DNA from: Gemmatimonadetes bacterium 13_1_40CM_69_22
Lineage (GTDB): Bacteria; Gemmatimonadota; Gemmatimonadetes; Gemmatimonadales; GWC2-71-9
Reading direction: 5' to 3'
Assembly: GCA_001917665.1 (NCBI GenBank)
Contig: MNEL01000042.1
Span: forward strand, 16,495-80,494
DNA length: 64,000 bases
Shown: positions 44,697 through 52,983 of the stretch, one piece after another
Position numbering within the stretch: position 1 is the stretch's first letter
Layout: each line of letters begins with the position of its first letter
Program-made: the position numbers and the translations under genes
Notes under the pieces: model-generated
Told to the model about the DNA's origin: nothing
Seen by the model: only the letters and a program-made list of their open reading frames with translations
The model's database searches: none

Positions 44697-46220
44697 ATGA
44701 CCCGGCCAGCGCATCCTCAGGTCGCCCCAAGGTCCCGGCGCACGTGGCGGGCCACCGCTCTATCCCTCGTCGCGGGAGCGGCGCTCTGCGCGGCGTGCAT
44801 GGACTTGAACGTCCCGGACTTGAACAATCCAGCGATCGGGGATCTGCAATCGAGCCCGACGCGCGCCGGCGTCATCACGGCCACCCAGGGTCTGTTCATC
44901 GGGGCGCGGGCGAACATCGCTCCGTTCAACGGCTACATTGCCGAGCTCGGCGTGCTGGGTCGCGAGTCCTACGTGTGGAACGCCGGCGACCCGCGCTTCA
45001 TCACGGAGCTGCTCCGCGGCCCGCTCGACGGCGGCAGCCCCCGGTTCGGCGGCAATCTCTGGAACGATCGGCTCGCGAACATTCGTAACGCCGGTATCGT
45101 GCTCAAGGCACTCGCGGTCGTGGGCCCGACGCCGCCGGTAGGCATGACGGCAACCGAAAAGGCCGCCACGGGCGGCTTCGTGAAGACGATCGAGGCGCTC
45201 GATTTCCTGCTTCTCATCGATACACGCGACACACTCGGTGCGCCTGTGGATGTGAACCAGGACGTCGGCGCGCCGCTGGGCCCGTTCGTGAAGCGCGACT
45301 CGGTGTTCGGCTTTATCGTCGGATTGCTGGATTCGGCCAACGTGGCCCTCGCGGCGGGCGGCACCTCGTTCCCGTTCGGCCTCCCGCCCGGTTTCAGCGG
45401 GTTCGCGACTCCGGTGAAGTTCATCCAGTTCAACCGCGCGCTGAAGGCACGCGTGGAGGCGTATCGGGCCACGCTCCTGGCCTGCGGCGCCGCCTGTTGG
45501 ACCCGCGCCAGGTCGGCACTCGATTCGTCCTTCTTGAGTGTGCCCGCCGACACGCTGCTGAAGGACGCGGTGGATTCTGTCGGGACGGCCACCATGTTGG
45601 CGGGCGGTGCCTATTACGACTTCGGCACCGGGTCGGGCGACCTGACGCACGGACTATTCGACCCCACCGGGCTGAACGAGCGCGGGCATCCGTCGCTCCG
45701 CACCCAGGCCGACACCCAGGCGAACGGGCAGCGCGACCGGCGGTTCCTGAAGAAGATCGTGTCCGTCCCGCTGCTTTCCCGACCGTTCAATCACACCGCG
45801 GACATGGCGTTCACCATTTACGGCAGTGTGGTCGCGCAGGTCCCGATCATTCGGAAAGAGGAGCTCATTCTGCTGCGTGCCGAGGCCGAGCTTGGGCTCG
45901 GAAACGCGCCGGGCGCGGCGGCGCTCATCAACTACATTCGGGTCAACTCGGGACGCCTGCCGCCACGAGTGGGCCTAGCCGCTTCGCCGACCGACACGAT
46001 CATCAATGAGCTTCTGAAGCAAAGAGTCTACTCTTTGCTGTTCGAGGGTGGACACCGTTGGATTGATGCTCGCCGGTACGGCCGGCTGTACCCGAGCGCC
46101 GTAAGCCCAGGGCTACCCAACCCCGTGGCGGGAGACAACGTGTTCGCCGTCATGCCGATCCCGACGGATGAGTGCAGTGCGCGGGGCCTCCCGGCCAACT
46201 GCCACCCGCTGACTCCTTAG
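44697..46220 (+). CDS. RagB/SusD-like lipoprotein
   Basis: LVAGAALCAACMDLNVPDLNNPAIGDLQSS...ELILLRAEAELGLGNAPGAAALINYIRVNSG...ELLKQRVYSLLFEGGHRWIDARRYG; immediately follows susC. Confidence 0.9.
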   Translation: MTRPAHPQVAPRSRRTWRATALSLVAGAALCAACMDLNVPDLNNPAIGDLQSSPTRAGVITATQGLFIGARANIAPFNGYIAELGVLGRESYVWNAGDPRFITELLRGPLDGGSPRFGGNLWNDRLANIRNAGIVLKALAVVGPTPPVGMTATEKAATGGFVKTIEALDFLLLIDTRDTLGAPVDVNQDVGAPLGPFVKRDSVFGFIVGLLDSANVALAAGGTSFPFGLPPGFSGFATPVKFIQFNRALKARVEAYRATLLACGAACWTRARSALDSSFLSVPADTLLKDAVDSVGTATMLAGGAYYDFGTGSGDLTHGLFDPTGLNERGHPSLRTQADTQANGQRDRRFLKKIVSVPLLSRPFNHTADMAFTIYGSVVAQVPIIRKEELILLRAEAELGLGNAPGAAALINYIRVNSGRLPPRVGLAASPTDTIINELLKQRVYSLLFEGGHRWIDARRYGRLYPSAVSPGLPNPVAGDNVFAVMPIPTDECSARGLPANCHPLTP

Positions 46221-46351
46221 GGCCGGACGCCCGGGCGCGCCGGTTTTTCTGCGCCGCCCCAACTTGCTTGACGCCCACCCGACCCCGCGCTATATCGGGC
46301 GGCGTGCGGATTCGTGACCGCCGTTACCCCCGGGAACATGAAGGAGACCCT

Positions 46352-49180
46352 ATGCGACGCGTCGTCGGTGTCATCGCCTGCGCGGTCCTGATACTGATCG
46401 CGACCTCGGGGCGGCTCGCCGCGCAAGGCGGGTCGGTCCGCGGCCGCGTGGCCGACACGACGGGGGCGCCGCTGGCGCGCGTGAGCGTCAGCATCGAGGC
46501 GATCGGGGCGCGCGCCACCACCAACGAGAAGGGGGAGTACGAGATCCGCGGCGTGCCGGCTGGCACGCACGCGGTACGTGCCAGGTTGCTCGGCTACGTG
46601 CCGCAGATCGTGCGTGTCACGGTGAGCGAAGCGCAGCCCGCCCGCCAGGACTTCGCGCTGCACACGCAGCCGATCGGGCTCGCGCCGGTGGACGTCGTGG
46701 TCGGCTCCCGCGCGCGGCACGCTGCGTCGGACGAGCTGGCCGTCCCGGTGGACGTGTTCACGTCCGAGCAAATACAGCAGCAAGGGACCACGGAGACGAG
46801 TCAGGTGCTCCAGGCGCTCGCTCCCTCGGTGAATTTCCCCCATCAGAGCGTCACCGACGCGGGCGACATCGGGCGCCCCTTCACCCTGCGGGGCCTCTCC
46901 CCCGACCAAACGCTCGTGTTGTTGAACGGCTGGCGCCGGCATCAGACCGCCCTGGTGAACAACTTCACCTACGGGATGGGCGCCGGCTCGAGCGGCGTGG
47001 ACTTGAACACGATCCCGCAGAGCGCCATCGACCGGATGGAAGTGTTGCGGGACGGCGCGTCGGCCCAGTACGGCTCCGATGCCATCGCGGGCGTCGTGAA
47101 CCTGGTGATGAAAGAGGGTCCGTTCACGCCCTACGTCAACGTCGACGCGGGGCGCTACGCCACCGCCAACTACTCCGGCGACGGCACGACGACGGACGTG
47201 AACGGCGGCTGGGGCGTGAAACTAGGCCGCGGCTCACTCGCCCTGTTCGGAGAGTTCCTCGACCGCGAGCCGACCAACCGGGCGTGGGCCGATCCGTACG
47301 ACAACAGCGTGAACGGGGTCGCGGACTCCGTCAACAGCCAGGGGCAGGTGGTGGTGAAGCGGAACCCGGTCCCGCAGCCGAGCAGCCATTGGGGCGACGG
47401 GCTCGAGAAGGACATCATGACGTTGGGGAACTTCCGCCTGCCGCTCAACGACCCGCGCACCAGCGAATTCTACGCGTTCGGCGGATACAGCTTCCGCCAC
47501 GGGACGGGGAACGCCTACCGGCGGTACGGCAACAACTCGCGGAACTGGCCGGAGATCTACCCGTTGGGCTTTCTGCCGCAGTTCTCACCGCACGTGACGG
47601 ACTACTCGGCTGCGGGTGGCTGGCGCGGAGCGACCGGCGGCTGGTCGCTGGACTTGGGCGCGAGCTTCGGTCACAACCACTTCGATTACGACTTGACCAA
47701 CACGCTCAACGCGTCGTTGGGACCGTGCCTGACGCTCGACCCCACGCTGTGCTCGGCTCCGGCCCCCGGCCCCGACGGGACGGCCGGCACGGGCGACGAG
47801 ATCCCCAACCAGACGTCGTTCTACGCCGGACGCTTGCTCCGCGAAGAGCTGATCGCCCAGGCGAACGTCACCAAGGCGGTGACCCTGGGCCTGCGGGCGC
47901 CCGTGAGCCTGGCGCTGGGCGCGGCGTGGCGCCGGGAGCGCTACCAGATCGGAGCGGGCGAGCTGGCCTCGTACATCAACGGCCGGGACAGCACCCAGTT
48001 CGGCGGCGGCTTGAGCAGCTCCGTCAGCGGCTCACAGGGCTTCCCGGGGTTTACGCCCAATGATGCGTCGGATCACAATCGGACGAACTTCGGGGCGTAC
48101 CTGGACGCGGAGGCGGAGCTCTCCGCGAAAGTCCTGGCGGACGTGGCGGGACGGTTCGAGCACTACAGCGACTTCGGCTCCCGGATGACGGGCAAGCTGG
48201 CGTTGCGTTATCAGCCGTCCAGGCAGCTCACGCTGCGCGGCGCCGCGAGCACGGGGTTCCGCGCCCCGGGCATCAGCCAAGAATACTTCAGCAAGGTGGT
48301 CACCAACGTGATCGCCGGTGTTCCGGTGCAGGTCGGCATCTTCCCCGTGAATACGCACGCCGCCCGCGTGCTCGGCGCGAAGCCGCTGCGCGACGAGACC
48401 TCGGTGAACCTGAGTGGTGGGTTCGCCTACTCGCCGACGGGCAACGTGACTTTCACGGCGGACTACTTCTACATCAAGATCGATCACCGCATCATGCTCA
48501 GCGCGACCTTCCTCCAGGACAGCACTGTCAGGATCCTAGTGGACAGCGGCGTCAGCGGCGTGGGGGCCATCCAGTACTTTACGAATGGCCTGAACACGCG
48601 CACCCAGGGCGTCGACGTCACGGCCAACCTGCGCGTTCCCGAGGTCGGGGGCGGCACGCTCGACTGGACGGCGGGGGTCAACTGGACGAAGAACAAGATC
48701 ACGAGCGTCGATTCCTTGCCTCCGATCTTCAAGGGCACCGGTGAGACCGGCCTAATCGATTCGGTGACCTGGATCGGGATCACGGAGGAGCGCCCCGACT
48801 GGCGCGGCACGTTGACGGGCCAGTATTCCGTGAGCCGATTTCATGCGCTGGCGCGGGCGTCGTATTTCGGGAAATTCTCCTCGGCGCAACCGGGTTACTG
48901 CGACCGGTGCCGCGACAGTTACGGCGGGAAGACGCTGTTCGACGCGGAACTGGGCTACCGCTTCAACGGTGCGGAGCTCTCGGTCGGCGTCCGGAACATT
49001 TTCGACACGTATCCGGACCAGCCGAAGTCTCTTGCCCTGGTCGATCCCTCGGACCCGAGCGCAGGCACGGCCAAGGACTGGAACAACAACTACGGGGTGT
49101 TCCCCTGGGCGGCGGCGTCGCCGTTCGGGTACAACGGGCGCTACCTCTACACCCGGGCGTCGATTTCTTTGAGTCGGTAG
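46352..49180 (+). CDS. TonB-dependent receptor with N-terminal carboxypeptidase-regulatory-like domain
   Basis: GSVRGRVADTTGAPLARVSVSIEAIGARATTNEKGEYEIRGVPAG...FTLRGLSPDQTLVLLNGWRRHQTALVN...IDRMEVLRDGASAQYGSDAIAGVVNLV. Confidence 0.93.
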   Translation: MRRVVGVIACAVLILIATSGRLAAQGGSVRGRVADTTGAPLARVSVSIEAIGARATTNEKGEYEIRGVPAGTHAVRARLLGYVPQIVRVTVSEAQPARQDFALHTQPIGLAPVDVVVGSRARHAASDELAVPVDVFTSEQIQQQGTTETSQVLQALAPSVNFPHQSVTDAGDIGRPFTLRGLSPDQTLVLLNGWRRHQTALVNNFTYGMGAGSSGVDLNTIPQSAIDRMEVLRDGASAQYGSDAIAGVVNLVMKEGPFTPYVNVDAGRYATANYSGDGTTTDVNGGWGVKLGRGSLALFGEFLDREPTNRAWADPYDNSVNGVADSVNSQGQVVVKRNPVPQPSSHWGDGLEKDIMTLGNFRLPLNDPRTSEFYAFGGYSFRHGTGNAYRRYGNNSRNWPEIYPLGFLPQFSPHVTDYSAAGGWRGATGGWSLDLGASFGHNHFDYDLTNTLNASLGPCLTLDPTLCSAPAPGPDGTAGTGDEIPNQTSFYAGRLLREELIAQANVTKAVTLGLRAPVSLALGAAWRRERYQIGAGELASYINGRDSTQFGGGLSSSVSGSQGFPGFTPNDASDHNRTNFGAYLDAEAELSAKVLADVAGRFEHYSDFGSRMTGKLALRYQPSRQLTLRGAASTGFRAPGISQEYFSKVVTNVIAGVPVQVGIFPVNTHAARVLGAKPLRDETSVNLSGGFAYSPTGNVTFTADYFYIKIDHRIMLSATFLQDSTVRILVDSGVSGVGAIQYFTNGLNTRTQGVDVTANLRVPEVGGGTLDWTAGVNWTKNKITSVDSLPPIFKGTGETGLIDSVTWIGITEERPDWRGTLTGQYSVSRFHALARASYFGKFSSAQPGYCDRCRDSYGGKTLFDAELGYRFNGAELSVGVRNIFDTYPDQPKSLALVDPSDPSAGTAKDWNNNYGVFPWAAASPFGYNGRYLYTRASISLSR

Positions 49181-49290: not shown

Positions 49291-50385
49291 CTACGGCACG
49301 AGCAACACCCCGACCATGCCCCCCAGCCCGTCGGGTACCGCGGCCACACCGTTGGGCACGACCCAGTCGTTGCCGTCCACGAGGAGGTTGAAGTGGTACA
49401 GGCCGCGCTTGAGCGCGAGCGTTCCCTCCCACAGATCCGCGCCCAACGAGCGTAGCGGCGCCGGCTGCCACTGGTTCCAGTCGCCCGCAATCGCCACCGA
49501 GCGCACACTCTCGAAGCGGAACTGCACCACGAGACTGTCGCCGCGGGGGTCGGGAACGAGCGGTGACCACTGCGGACCCTTGGGGGAGGCAATAGGCGCG
49601 GCAGGCGTGGTGTGTAGCCGCACGCCGAGCGTCAGGAACGCCGCCCGCGGCAGGCCCTGATACGGATCCTTCAGGTAGCTCCCGCCGCCCACCTCGAGCG
49701 CGATACTCGGCGAGACGAAGAATCGGAGAAAGGCGCTCCCCGCTGCGGTTGAAGCGGAGACACGGGAAAGCCGCGCGGCGGCCCAAACGGATGCGATCGC
49801 GGGCCCCCGTGTGAGCGTGACCTGTGCGGCCGCATCGGTGAACCACCCCTCGGGGAGCCGCGTCGGCTCTATCGTAAGCTGCCAATCAGCGCGTGCCGCA
49901 TCCCCGGCCGGCCGCCACCAGGCACGCGCGCGGGTGTGAAACGCCGTGGTCGATGCGTCGTTCGCGATCCAGCCGGCTGAGGGCCCCGCGCCGACGCCGA
50001 ATCCCCACCGCGGCCGGGACCACAAGAGCTCGCCGATGCCGTGGGCCGCCGCGGTCCAACCGCCATCGGTCCAACTCATGCCCGCGAGGATTCCCTCCAC
50101 GCCGATCCGCCACCCGTCGCGGATCGGGCGCGACGCGAGCCACAGGTCGCCGCGCCCTTGGCTCGACCACACTCCGCCGGGAAGCGAGGCGAACGAGCCC
50201 GAGACGTCGGCGCTGACGGTCGGGGACCCGAAGTGCAGGGTGGGGGAGAACGACCCCGAGCTGAACGTTGTCCCGCCGGTATCGCGCACGGTGCCGACGC
50301 CCAAGCCGAACGACGCCCGCGCTTGAGCGCCCACCGGTCGGACGCCAAGGCCGGCGGCACAGAGAAACAGCAAGAGCCGCCTCAC
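49291..50385 (-). CDS. Secreted protein with C-terminal CBM48/AMPK-type glycogen-binding-like domain
   Basis: SLVVQFRFESVRSVAIAGDWNQWQPAPLRSLGADLWEGTLALKRGLYHFNLLVDGNDWVVPNGVAAVPDG. Confidence 0.8.
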   Translation of the reverse strand: MRRLLLFLCAAGLGVRPVGAQARASFGLGVGTVRDTGGTTFSSGSFSPTLHFGSPTVSADVSGSFASLPGGVWSSQGRGDLWLASRPIRDGWRIGVEGILAGMSWTDGGWTAAAHGIGELLWSRPRWGFGVGAGPSAGWIANDASTTAFHTRARAWWRPAGDAARADWQLTIEPTRLPEGWFTDAAAQVTLTRGPAIASVWAAARLSRVSASTAAGSAFLRFFVSPSIALEVGGGSYLKDPYQGLPRAAFLTLGVRLHTTPAAPIASPKGPQWSPLVPDPRGDSLVVQFRFESVRSVAIAGDWNQWQPAPLRSLGADLWEGTLALKRGLYHFNLLVDGNDWVVPNGVAAVPDGLGGMVGVLLVP

Positions 50386-50502: not shown

Positions 50503-50856
50503 TTACGGCCGGTGACTCCCGGACTGGCCCGGGCTCGCCGGCTTATGCGGTGGCTGCGCCGGCACCGCCATGTGCGGCGGGCTACCGGTAGGTGGCGCAG
50601 CAGGTGTGGTCACGCCGCCCGCCTCAGGCACCGCCCGTCCGACGGGCGGAGTTGCGATCCAGCCCGGCCGGTGGGACAGTCCGCCTGCTACCTCGCCGCG
50701 ACGCTGGGTCGCCCGGTGCTGAGCACCCTTGGAATGCGCGGTGACCATCGCCTGCCCCTGCGGAGACGCGTGGTCGTTGGGAATCGTGGGCGTCTGGGCT
50801 GCCAACACGCTCGGTAATGCAAGCGCAGCCGCGAGCCCGATAAGTTTACTAATCAT
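50503..50856 (-). CDS. Small secreted Pro/His-rich hypothetical protein
   Basis: MISKLIGLAAALALPSVLAAQTPTIPNDHASPQGQAM... signal peptide and low-complexity tail. Confidence 0.5.
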   Translation of the reverse strand: MISKLIGLAAALALPSVLAAQTPTIPNDHASPQGQAMVTAHSKGAQHRATQRRGEVAGGLSHRPGWIATPPVGRAVPEAGGVTTPAAPPTGSPPHMAVPAQPPHKPASPGQSGSHRP

Positions 50857-51092
50857 GCACCCTCCTACATCCGCCACCCTCCTACATCCGCACGTGAGGG
50901 GGGCGGTGCCCCCCATGGCTTCGGATCTTCGCTATGAAGACGGCGGCCAAAGGCTTCGGGTAACCAGCCTACCGGAAGTCGCGGTGGGACCGAACGTTAC
51001 CTGCGTGCCACAACGCGACTCTTTAGGCCAGGAGCCGGTTGCCGCAGCCTCAGCGGGCGTCTACCATCCTCTGCGTACCTCTGGCAGCTGAG

Positions 51093-51653
51093 GTGGCTCG
51101 GTTGGGTCTGCGGGAACAGGCGACAGACGGGGAAGTCGTCCACGCCGTGCTGGCGGGGGATGTGGAGCAGTATGCGGTGCTGGTACACCGCTACCGCGAC
51201 CGTTATGCGCGCTTCGCCGCCCGGATGCTCGGCTCGCTCGATGCGGCCGAAGACGCGGTCCAGGACGCGCTGGTTCGGGCGTTCGATCAGTTGGCGCAGT
51301 GTCGGGAACCCGACAAGTTTGCGGGGTGGCTGTTTCTGATCCTGCGAAACCGCTGCTTCGCCGAGCGGCGCCGCCAGACGCGCGAAGGGCGAGGGCTCGA
51401 GGACGCCGACGAAGCGGTGGCCGGGCCGGACCGACCGGATGGGAATGTGGAGCAGGTGGAGCGGACGCGCGCGCTCGAGCAGGCGCTGGTCAAGCTGACG
51501 CCGGAGCAGCGCGAAGTGTTCGTGCTGAAGCACGTGGAAGGGTTGGCGTACGAGGAGATCGCAACCATGACCGGCGCCACGGTGGCGTCGCTCAAAATGC
51601 GGATGCATCGCGCGTATGATCGGCTGCGGGAGCTGCTGAAGGAGCACTCATGA
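51093..51653 (+). CDS. ECF RNA polymerase sigma factor
   Basis: LAGDVEQYAVLVHRYRDRYARFAARMLGSLDAAEDAVQDALVRAFDQLAQC...LTPEQREVFVLKHVEGLAYEEIATMTGATVASLKMRMHRAYDRL. Confidence 0.93.
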   Translation: MARLGLREQATDGEVVHAVLAGDVEQYAVLVHRYRDRYARFAARMLGSLDAAEDAVQDALVRAFDQLAQCREPDKFAGWLFLILRNRCFAERRRQTREGRGLEDADEAVAGPDRPDGNVEQVERTRALEQALVKLTPEQREVFVLKHVEGLAYEEIATMTGATVASLKMRMHRAYDRLRELLKEHS

Positions 51654-52306
51654 CCCAGGCGTATCATCAGTTGGTGAAGCGGCTGTTGGACGGGGAGCTG
51701 TCGCTCTCGGACCTGCCGCCCGAGCTCCGCGCCGAGGGCGCGGAGGCGCTGCGCCTGCTGGGCGCCGTGGATCGCACGCCCGTGTTGCTCCCGCTGCAAC
51801 TCGACGCTCGCGTGATGGCCGAGGTGCGGCGGCGCGCCCGCTCTCCGGTGCGGCGCGCGTGGCGTCGGCTGGTCGAGCCCCGGGACGTCGAGCTGCGGCT
51901 GCGGGTCCGACCCTGGGTCGTCTGGGGCGGCGCGCTCGCCGCGGCAGCCACCGTCGCGTTGCTCCTCGCCTGGCCGCCGGCATCGCCGGGCCGCATACGG
52001 CCGGTTCGTGTCGCGGCGCGCGACAGTGTGTACGTCCGGTTCGTGCTGTACGCTCCAGGGGCCAAACAGGTCGCGGTCGCGGGGACGTTCAACCAATGGG
52101 ACCAGAACGCCGCACGACTGGTGCGGCTGGGGGCCGACGGGATCTGGACGATCACGCTGGCGCTGCCTCAGGGCCAGCACCAGTACGCCTTCGTGGTGGA
52201 CGGCCAGCGCTGGGTCCCCGATCCGGCGGCCCCCGGTATCGATGACGGGTTCGGGCGGCGGAACAGTGTGGTCGCGGTGACCGCTCACGGGGCGCGCACT
52301 CTGTGA
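51650..52306 (+). CDS. Anti-sigma-like single-TM protein with periplasmic CBM48-like domain
   Basis: Overlaps sigma stop by 4 nt; TM VVWGGALAAAATVALLLAW; YVRFVLYAPGAKQVAVAGTFNQWDQNAARLVRLGADGIWTITLALPQGQHQYAFVVDGQRWVPDPAAP. Confidence 0.8.
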   Translation: MTQAYHQLVKRLLDGELSLSDLPPELRAEGAEALRLLGAVDRTPVLLPLQLDARVMAEVRRRARSPVRRAWRRLVEPRDVELRLRVRPWVVWGGALAAAATVALLLAWPPASPGRIRPVRVAARDSVYVRFVLYAPGAKQVAVAGTFNQWDQNAARLVRLGADGIWTITLALPQGQHQYAFVVDGQRWVPDPAAPGIDDGFGRRNSVVAVTAHGARTL

Positions 52307-52983
52307 GACGCGCGGCTCTCGCCCTCGCGATCGCCTCGAGCGGGGCGCTGCGCCTCGCCGCGCAGCAGCCGGACGTGGCGGCGCGGCTGAACGGCCGGGT
52401 CCCCGCCGAGGTGGTGCCCGCCGTCGCGGGCGTCGCGGCTTCGGCTGCCAGCCGGGGCCTCCCGGTGGAGCCACTCATCCAGAAGGCGATCGAAGGGGGC
52501 GCGAAAGGCAGGCCGGCCCAGCAGGTGATCGCGGCGGTGCGCGCGCTTGCCGACCAGCTCGGTGCGGCGAGCGGTGCGCTCCGCTCAGGCGGCTTCGATC
52601 ACGCGGACGCTGATCTCGTGGAAGGCGGGGCCTATGCGCTCGGCGCCGGGCTCAGCGTGAGGCAGGTGCAGCACCTGGCCCGCGCGAGCCGGCCGCCCTA
52701 CGAGCCGGCGCTCACCTTGCGGGTGGCGGGCACGCTCGCGGCGCTCGGTGTCCCCCCGAAGAACACCCTCGACCTGGTGGAAGGCCTGATCAATGCGGGT
52801 CGCTCGCCCAGCGACCTGCTCGATCTTCCCAGCGAGGTCCAAGCGGGCGTCGCCCGCGGCGCGACCCCGGCGCAGGCGGCCGACGGCTTGGCGCGCGCCG
52901 CAGCGCATGCGCCGGGCAGCGGTCCGCCTGGCGGCGTGCCGCCGGGGCAGGCGAAAGGGCACGGGAACCCGCACAAACCCTGA
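52303..52983 (+). CDS. Secreted hypothetical protein, co-operonic with the sigma/anti-sigma pair
   Basis: 4-nt overlap with the upstream gene; signal peptide; C-terminal PGGVPPGQAKGHGNPHKP. Confidence 0.65.
   Translation: MRRAALALAIASSGALRLAAQQPDVAARLNGRVPAEVVPAVAGVAASAASRGLPVEPLIQKAIEGGAKGRPAQQVIAAVRALADQLGAASGALRSGGFDHADADLVEGGAYALGAGLSVRQVQHLARASRPPYEPALTLRVAGTLAALGVPPKNTLDLVEGLINAGRSPSDLLDLPSEVQAGVARGATPAQAADGLARAAAHAPGSGPPGGVPPGQAKGHGNPHKP

Follow-up and report, generated by a model that had tools for sequence, protein, structure and literature searches.

Positions 51093-52983 of the 64-kb window (the whole stretch of DNA analysed here, from a soil member of the Gemmatimonadota) hold three plus-strand genes: those of an ECF sigma factor, of a single-pass membrane protein carrying a CBM48 domain (TM-CBM48) and of a predicted secreted protein, here called X (Table 1). 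The sigma gene begins with GTG, and there is an in-frame TTG alternative at 51039. Its product matches Sigma70_r2 (3.9e-14) and r4_2 (2.7e-15) in Pfam, and TIGR02937 in NCBIfam at 94.2 bits against a cut-off of 42.9, in agreement with the coordinates and domains given in the preliminary description of this DNA. The TM-CBM48 gene starts inside the sigma stop codon (4 bp overlap, ATGA), and the start of the X gene in turn overlaps the stop codon of the TM-CBM48 gene.

The preliminary description was right about the sigma/TM-CBM48 pair, but it overlooked two minus-strand genes that belong to the picture: a second CBM48 protein, predicted to be an outer-membrane barrel (49291-50385), and a small secreted protein (50503-50856). 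The latter ends in PASPGQSxxHRP and has no Pfam match, and its homologues occupy the same position in most loci with a divergent arrangement. Likewise, the window member of the X family matches no Pfam or NCBIfam family. In at least 56 of 68 loci the gene directly after TM-CBM48 encodes a homologue of X, as screened by motif; the family has the motif ...LPxEPLVxKALEGxAKxAxxxRIVAAVR... (alignment A4). A TonB-dependent-receptor-like protein is encoded at 46172-49180 on the plus strand, adjoining the barrel-CBM48 gene.

Table 1. Features of the sigma operon and the divergent barrel operon (window coordinates)
Feature	Position	Strand	Basis
Predicted outer-membrane beta-barrel with C-terminal CBM48, 364 aa	49291..50385	-	AlphaFold2, Foldseek, PF16561
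CBM48 of barrel protein	49297..49551	-	Pfam, AlphaFold2; predicted periplasmic by even strand number
Small secreted proline/histidine-rich protein, between divergent promoter and barrel gene	50503..50856	-	ORF; homologues in relatives
Divergent putative promoter copy facing barrel operon, GTTACC-N17-GTCTT	50937..50964	-	motif search
Putative promoter of sigma operon, GTTACC-N17-CTCTT	50996..51023	+	unique in 64 kb, expected 0.00
ECF sigma factor (sigma2-sigma4)	51093..51653	+	Pfam/NCBIfam; partner kept in relatives
Single-pass membrane anti-sigma-like protein with periplasmic CBM48, 218 aa	51650..52306	+	Pfam, AlphaFold2, Foldseek
N-terminal cytoplasmic domain, residues 1-76, zinc-finger anti-sigma homologue without HxxxCxxC	51650..51877	+	hhalign
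Transmembrane helix, residues 88-106	51911..51967	+	AlphaFold2; hydropathy
Periplasmic CBM48/AMPK-beta-type domain, residues 126-217	52025..52300	+	PF16561 2.7e-14; PDB; Foldseek
Conserved secreted helical protein X, third gene of sigma operon	52303..52983	+	relatives; alignment A4

The membrane protein and the predicted outer-membrane barrel

The AlphaFold2 model of the TM-CBM48 protein (56 homologues, whole-model pLDDT 85) has helices at residues 7-13, 24-41, 49-63 and 66-75 before the transmembrane helix, and a C-terminal beta-sandwich with pLDDT mostly >90, about 20 residues from the membrane. Within the sandwich, AMPK1_CBM (PF16561) covers residues 134-212, above cut-off. A PDB sequence search with the protein returned AMPK beta-2 (3.8e-12), and Foldseek aligned the sandwich to AMPK-beta CBMs at 2.6e-8, with 32% identity and 1.4 A rmsd. 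Family profile and predicted fold place the domain in the CBM48/AMPK-beta CBM family. The claim that a membrane protein coupled to the sigma gene carries a CBM48 is therefore upheld, given the PF16561 match, the one hydrophobic segment and the agreement of AlphaFold2 with Foldseek.

The N-terminal domain is more divergent. It has no match among the Pfam anti-sigma models, a PDB sequence search with it found nothing, and the zinc ligands HxxxCxxC are not present. A profile of 24 long-form N-termini nevertheless aligned by hhalign with the zf-HC2 anti-sigma domains of the same genome group at 93% probability (P 3.5e-7), over 76 columns beginning with the first residue. As controls served profiles of the two sigma termini (N and C), 40 profiles with shuffled columns and the reversed profile, and none of them exceeded 3%; profile homology thus supports the earlier label of an anti-sigma-like partner. 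Absence of HxxxCxxC is common among class I anti-sigma domains, in which the zinc motif is optional, and about 79% of Gemmatimonadetes ECFs were reported to be linked to such domains (PMC7406223). The four helices preceding the membrane segment in the model agree with the three-helix bundle plus helix 4 of class I anti-sigma domains, a feature that applies to the long class of homologues, including the window protein, and not to the short class. In 29 of 56 homologues the N-terminus is shortened. This short form matches the long form over its latter half (97.9%), is without the first anti-sigma helices, and when compared alone with the zinc-finger anti-sigma profile scores 1.3%. RseA, considered as the nearest anti-sigma factor on account of a shared RVMA motif, was dropped after a single-sequence hhalign comparison gave 1.9%. 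Judging from sequence, the sigma factor and the membrane protein very probably form a sigma/anti-sigma pair, and we infer that the membrane protein inhibits the sigma factor.

The second CBM48 protein is modelled by AlphaFold2 (52 homologues, pLDDT 88) as a barrel of 14 strands (residues 21-258) followed by a flexible linker and a CBM48 (279-363). The nearest solved barrels are OmpG and CymA (Foldseek 3.5e-8 to 2e-7), and the CBM48 aligns with AMPK-beta at 2.5e-5. PF16561 scores 2.2e-5 by hmmscan and lies above cut-off in a genome search. With an even number of strands, the N- and C-termini of a barrel are both periplasmic, and therefore the two CBM48s of the system should face the same compartment. 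On the model, the CBM48 of the barrel would be located in the periplasm, facing the CBM48 of the anti-sigma factor.

Conservation of the module and its promoter

Of 200 genomes sampled across the phylum, 135 have the TM-CBM48 protein by profile search, and almost all of these belong to the class Gemmatimonadetes. Among 61 relatives (Gemmatimonadetes soil MAGs, identified as such with the window protein alone as query), PF16561 occurs in 47, typically as pairs 1.2-3 kb apart. Eighty regions from relatives were classified for locus content. TM-CBM48 is immediately preceded by the sigma gene in 63 of 68 loci, with overlapping or abutting genes in 56 of those 63, so their adjacency is not due to chance. 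Barrel-CBM48 and TM-CBM48 share one locus in 53 of 64 cases; the rest include some that were misclassified by the simple rule used, lie at contig ends or are unrelated (L047 looks like a subtilase). The position of the barrel gene varies: in some loci it follows the other genes within their operon, in others it is divergent, like that of the window. Fifteen loci, some near contig ends, have TM-CBM48 without a barrel CBM48. The window's own genome has a second module, on contig C15, that is without a barrel. Throughout the class, the set of sigma factor, TM-CBM48 and secreted protein, in most cases with barrel-CBM48, is found again together with the promoter, often in two to three copies per genome. 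As an exception, the CBM48 barrel of one locus (L106) adjoins a sigma gene whose anti-sigma factor is of the ordinary zinc-finger type. A locus with sigma factor, TM-CBM48 and barrel-CBM48 also occurs in a contig labelled Proteobacteria (L169, SXON01000017.1), where transfer or a binning error is possible.

The pattern GTKACC-N17-STCTT has exactly two matches in the window, where 0.01 are expected from shuffles, and these are the two divergent sites of Table 1. An unsupervised count of gapped word pairs upstream of sigma genes in relatives returned GTGAC-N17-GGTC as the top pair. The wider form GTKAC[CGT]-N17-[GC]TC[TA] lies no more than 200 bp upstream of the sigma gene in 35 of 63 cases; for the other 28 the strict motif was not found upstream. 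The density of the pattern there is 75 times that in the rest of the loci, a figure that characterizes the motif without testing it independently, given that the pattern was derived from those same upstream sequences. Of 43 relaxed-pattern sites, 38 have the same distance of 23. In an independent set of sequences, the barrel-facing strand carries the motif in nine of eleven divergent loci.

The pair of motifs in the window resembles autoregulated ECF promoters, and barrel-CBM48 is therefore a likely target. We consider that the sigma operon is likely autoregulated and that barrel-CBM48 probably belongs to the sigma regulon. No CAZyme was found beside the handful of putative target sites inspected. 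Isolated motif matches (e.g., L130, L144, L133) were left out of the regulon, since single-motif patterns of the genus also match inside apparent coding frames.

Another putative target recurs. In seven divergent loci, all outside the window's genus (L051, L053, L059, L061, L067, L071, L077), the barrel-side promoter region is followed first by a gene for a protein of 97-127 aa that consists of Sigma70_r2 alone; the members scanned score 4.6e-13 to 9e-4 in Pfam. Two of these loci (L059, L071) gave no match to the strict motif on the barrel side, and no such gene follows the barrel-side promoter in the window's genus. Stand-alone mini-proteins of this type are situated behind the same motif in the window's genome (L125/C28, L143/C44) and in relatives (L118, L120, L127, L147). 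The sigma-region-2 mini-protein could act by titrating the anti-sigma domain as a decoy, or by competing for RNA polymerase.

How the module may signal

With moderate confidence, we suggest that a self-regulated ECF sigma/anti-sigma module that senses the envelope is the best explanation of the locus. Architecture, anti-sigma-domain homology, the promoter pair and class-wide conservation, all drawn from sequence and predicted structure, argue for it. In this scenario, the zinc-less class-I-type anti-sigma domain of the membrane protein would hold the sigma factor while its CBM48 samples the periplasm, and a change in the state of the CBM48 would lead to release of the sigma factor. Regulated proteolysis is the usual release step for class I anti-sigma factors. 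The freed sigma factor would transcribe its own operon (sigma factor, anti-sigma factor and secreted protein X) and, from the divergent promoter copy, the genes for the small secreted protein and for the barrel, whose periplasmic CBM48 would lie opposite that of the anti-sigma factor. We infer that the state of the CBM48 controls sigma release and that the barrel protein is among the targets and may also serve as an input. The most likely input would be occupation of the anti-sigma CBM48, either by a glycan, from the envelope or imported, to which the barrel CBM48 binds as well, or by the CBM48 of the barrel itself. Both the ligand and the direction of the signal are presumed here.

One alternative reading is that the module is a sensor of protein contact. 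The two CBM48s, or the anti-sigma CBM48 and protein X, would bind each other and thereby monitor the assembly or state of the outer-membrane barrel, by a logic like that of FecA/FecR or RseA/RseB. The preliminary description had left a protein ligand as an alternative, and the co-regulated outer-membrane CBM48 protein now provides a concrete candidate. Both CBM48s are predicted to face the periplasm, the barrel and sigma operons have the promoter motif in common, and CBM48s double as contact modules in AMPK. Moreover, distances among TM-CBM48 and barrel-CBM48 proteins correlate beyond the divergence of the sigma factor (partial r 0.39, permutation maximum 0.14), which fits joint evolution and is no proof of contact. 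However, the correlation is a weak and indirect sign of co-evolution, some modules have no barrel, and the kept tryptophans speak for stacking on sugar and not for contact with a protein. We regard a contact sensor as possible but less than probable, and give the same tentative weight to direct contact of the anti-sigma CBM48 with the barrel CBM48 or another envelope protein.

The second reading is that of a glycan receptor, in which the anti-sigma CBM48 binds alpha-glucan or another exogenous polysaccharide and induces genes for its use, as RsgI does for cellulose. There is precedent in RsgI anti-sigma factors with CBM sensors (PMC12203970). In AMPK-beta1 the sugar contacts are W100, K126, W133 and N150 (PMC4032982). 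The TM-CBM48 class retains W100 in 100%, W133 in 83% and N150 in 69% of its members, with K126 replaced, mostly by Ala; in the barrel class W100 is retained in 100% and W133 in 96%, and both K126 and N150 are replaced. The counterpart of W100 in the anti-sigma CBM48 of the window is W150. Given that plant AKINbeta2 binds starch with only the two tryptophans kept and K126 and N150 absent (PMC4032982), sugar binding is plausible in both classes.

Against this, the CBM48 is so close to the membrane that a large polysaccharide could reach it only by entering the periplasm. The occurrence of the module also does not visibly follow that of GlgB-type enzymes: across 41 relatives, enzyme-type CBM48s are found in about 14 of 30 genomes with the module and 6 of 11 others (approximate hand counts), with no visible association; five genomes of the window's genus have no GlgB-type match despite two to three modules each, and six related genomes show the reverse, GlgB-type enzymes without the module. 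Given this lack of a visible association, and with no CAZyme at the few sites inspected, the alpha-glucan idea is weakened. Sensing of the cell's own glycogen was downgraded on the same grounds, as the module does not track GlgB-type enzymes. Of the alpha-glucan ligand proposed in the preliminary description, the glycan part survives, with W100 invariant and W133 nearly so, while the specific identification as alpha-glucan has lost ground through the loss of K126 in both classes and of N150 in the barrel class and through the findings on GlgB and CAZymes. A glycan ligand of some kind is quite possible, falling just short of probable; the full reading as a receptor for exogenous polysaccharide appears rather unlikely.

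Finally, the membrane protein may be no inhibitor at all, with the CBM48 as a passive anchor or fold, the N-terminus as a sigma co-activator and X or the small secreted protein as the sensor, a reading that could draw on the lack of the first anti-sigma helices in the short class and on the wide retention of X but that we deem improbable, given that the long class, to which the window protein belongs, is homologous by profile to anti-sigma domains and that the surface tryptophans of the CBM48 are strongly retained.

Returning to the self-regulated envelope-sensing module, a more elaborate version is conceivable, although we would not count on it: a cross-envelope relay in which CBM48 domains on both the anti-sigma factor and the co-regulated barrel report how the outer membrane fares, touching each other directly or through a glycan bridge, and the sigma-region-2 mini-protein of the same regulon feeds back on the anti-sigma factor or on RNA polymerase.

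Relation to known systems

Several described systems share parts of this design. Like SigI/RsgI of Clostridium thermocellum (PMC12203970), the module includes a probable sigma/anti-sigma gene pair in which the membrane protein has a C-terminal CBM as its putative sensor. Here, however, an ECF sigma factor (TIGR02937) takes the place of SigI, the CBM is of family 48, the envelope is Gram-negative and a barrel has a second copy of the domain; the TM-CBM48 protein has no Pfam match to the RsgI N-domain or autocleavage domain. The FecI-FecR-FecA system similarly combines an ECF sigma factor, a single-pass regulator and a co-regulated outer-membrane protein, with periplasmic domains that face each other (PMC9249621). 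In contrast to a FecA-type transducer, the barrel described here is predicted by AlphaFold2 to have 14 strands and a C-terminal CBM48, with no plug or N-terminal signalling domain. CBM48 takes the place of the signalling domain of FecA as well as of the periplasmic domain of FecR, no Pfam match to FecR was found in the TM-CBM48 protein, and the sigma operon, unlike that of FecIRA, appears to be autoregulated.

Class I anti-sigma factors such as RseA, RskA, ChrR and RsiW also have an N-terminal helical domain followed by one transmembrane helix, but the proteins studied here have no zinc ligands, a CBM48 as the periplasmic domain and, in about half of the homologues, an N-terminus of half the length. 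In ECF52 of Actinobacteria (SCO4117) an ECF sigma factor is linked to a transmembrane segment and a carbohydrate-binding module (PMC5826349); there, everything is fused in one protein with a zinc finger, whereas the present module has separate genes, a CBM48 and a barrel partner. With the glycogen-binding domain of AMPK-beta the CBM48 shares the fold and both sugar-stacking tryptophans, yet it is extracytoplasmic, sits on a sigma regulator, has lost K126 and keeps N150 only in the anti-sigma class. The system resembles a blend of RsgI, ECF52 and FecIRA, but lacks those defining features of each that were tested.

In the open-access literature searched we found no description of CBM48 combined with an anti-sigma or ECF factor, and the class-wide pairing of an anti-sigma CBM48 with a barrel CBM48 has apparently not been described before. 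If our interpretation is correct, an AMPK-type glycogen-sensing fold has entered bacterial envelope signalling, and most genomes of a poorly studied soil class gain a named, testable sensory module. The paired CBM48s would allow a simple separation of glycan sensing from protein-contact sensing, and targets should be predictable from the promoter motif. At two loci in relatives of the same genus (L135:1500, L141:960), the motif is located about 40 bp before similar lipoprotein genes (CDQ.STGP/STDP...), which are possible members of the regulon.
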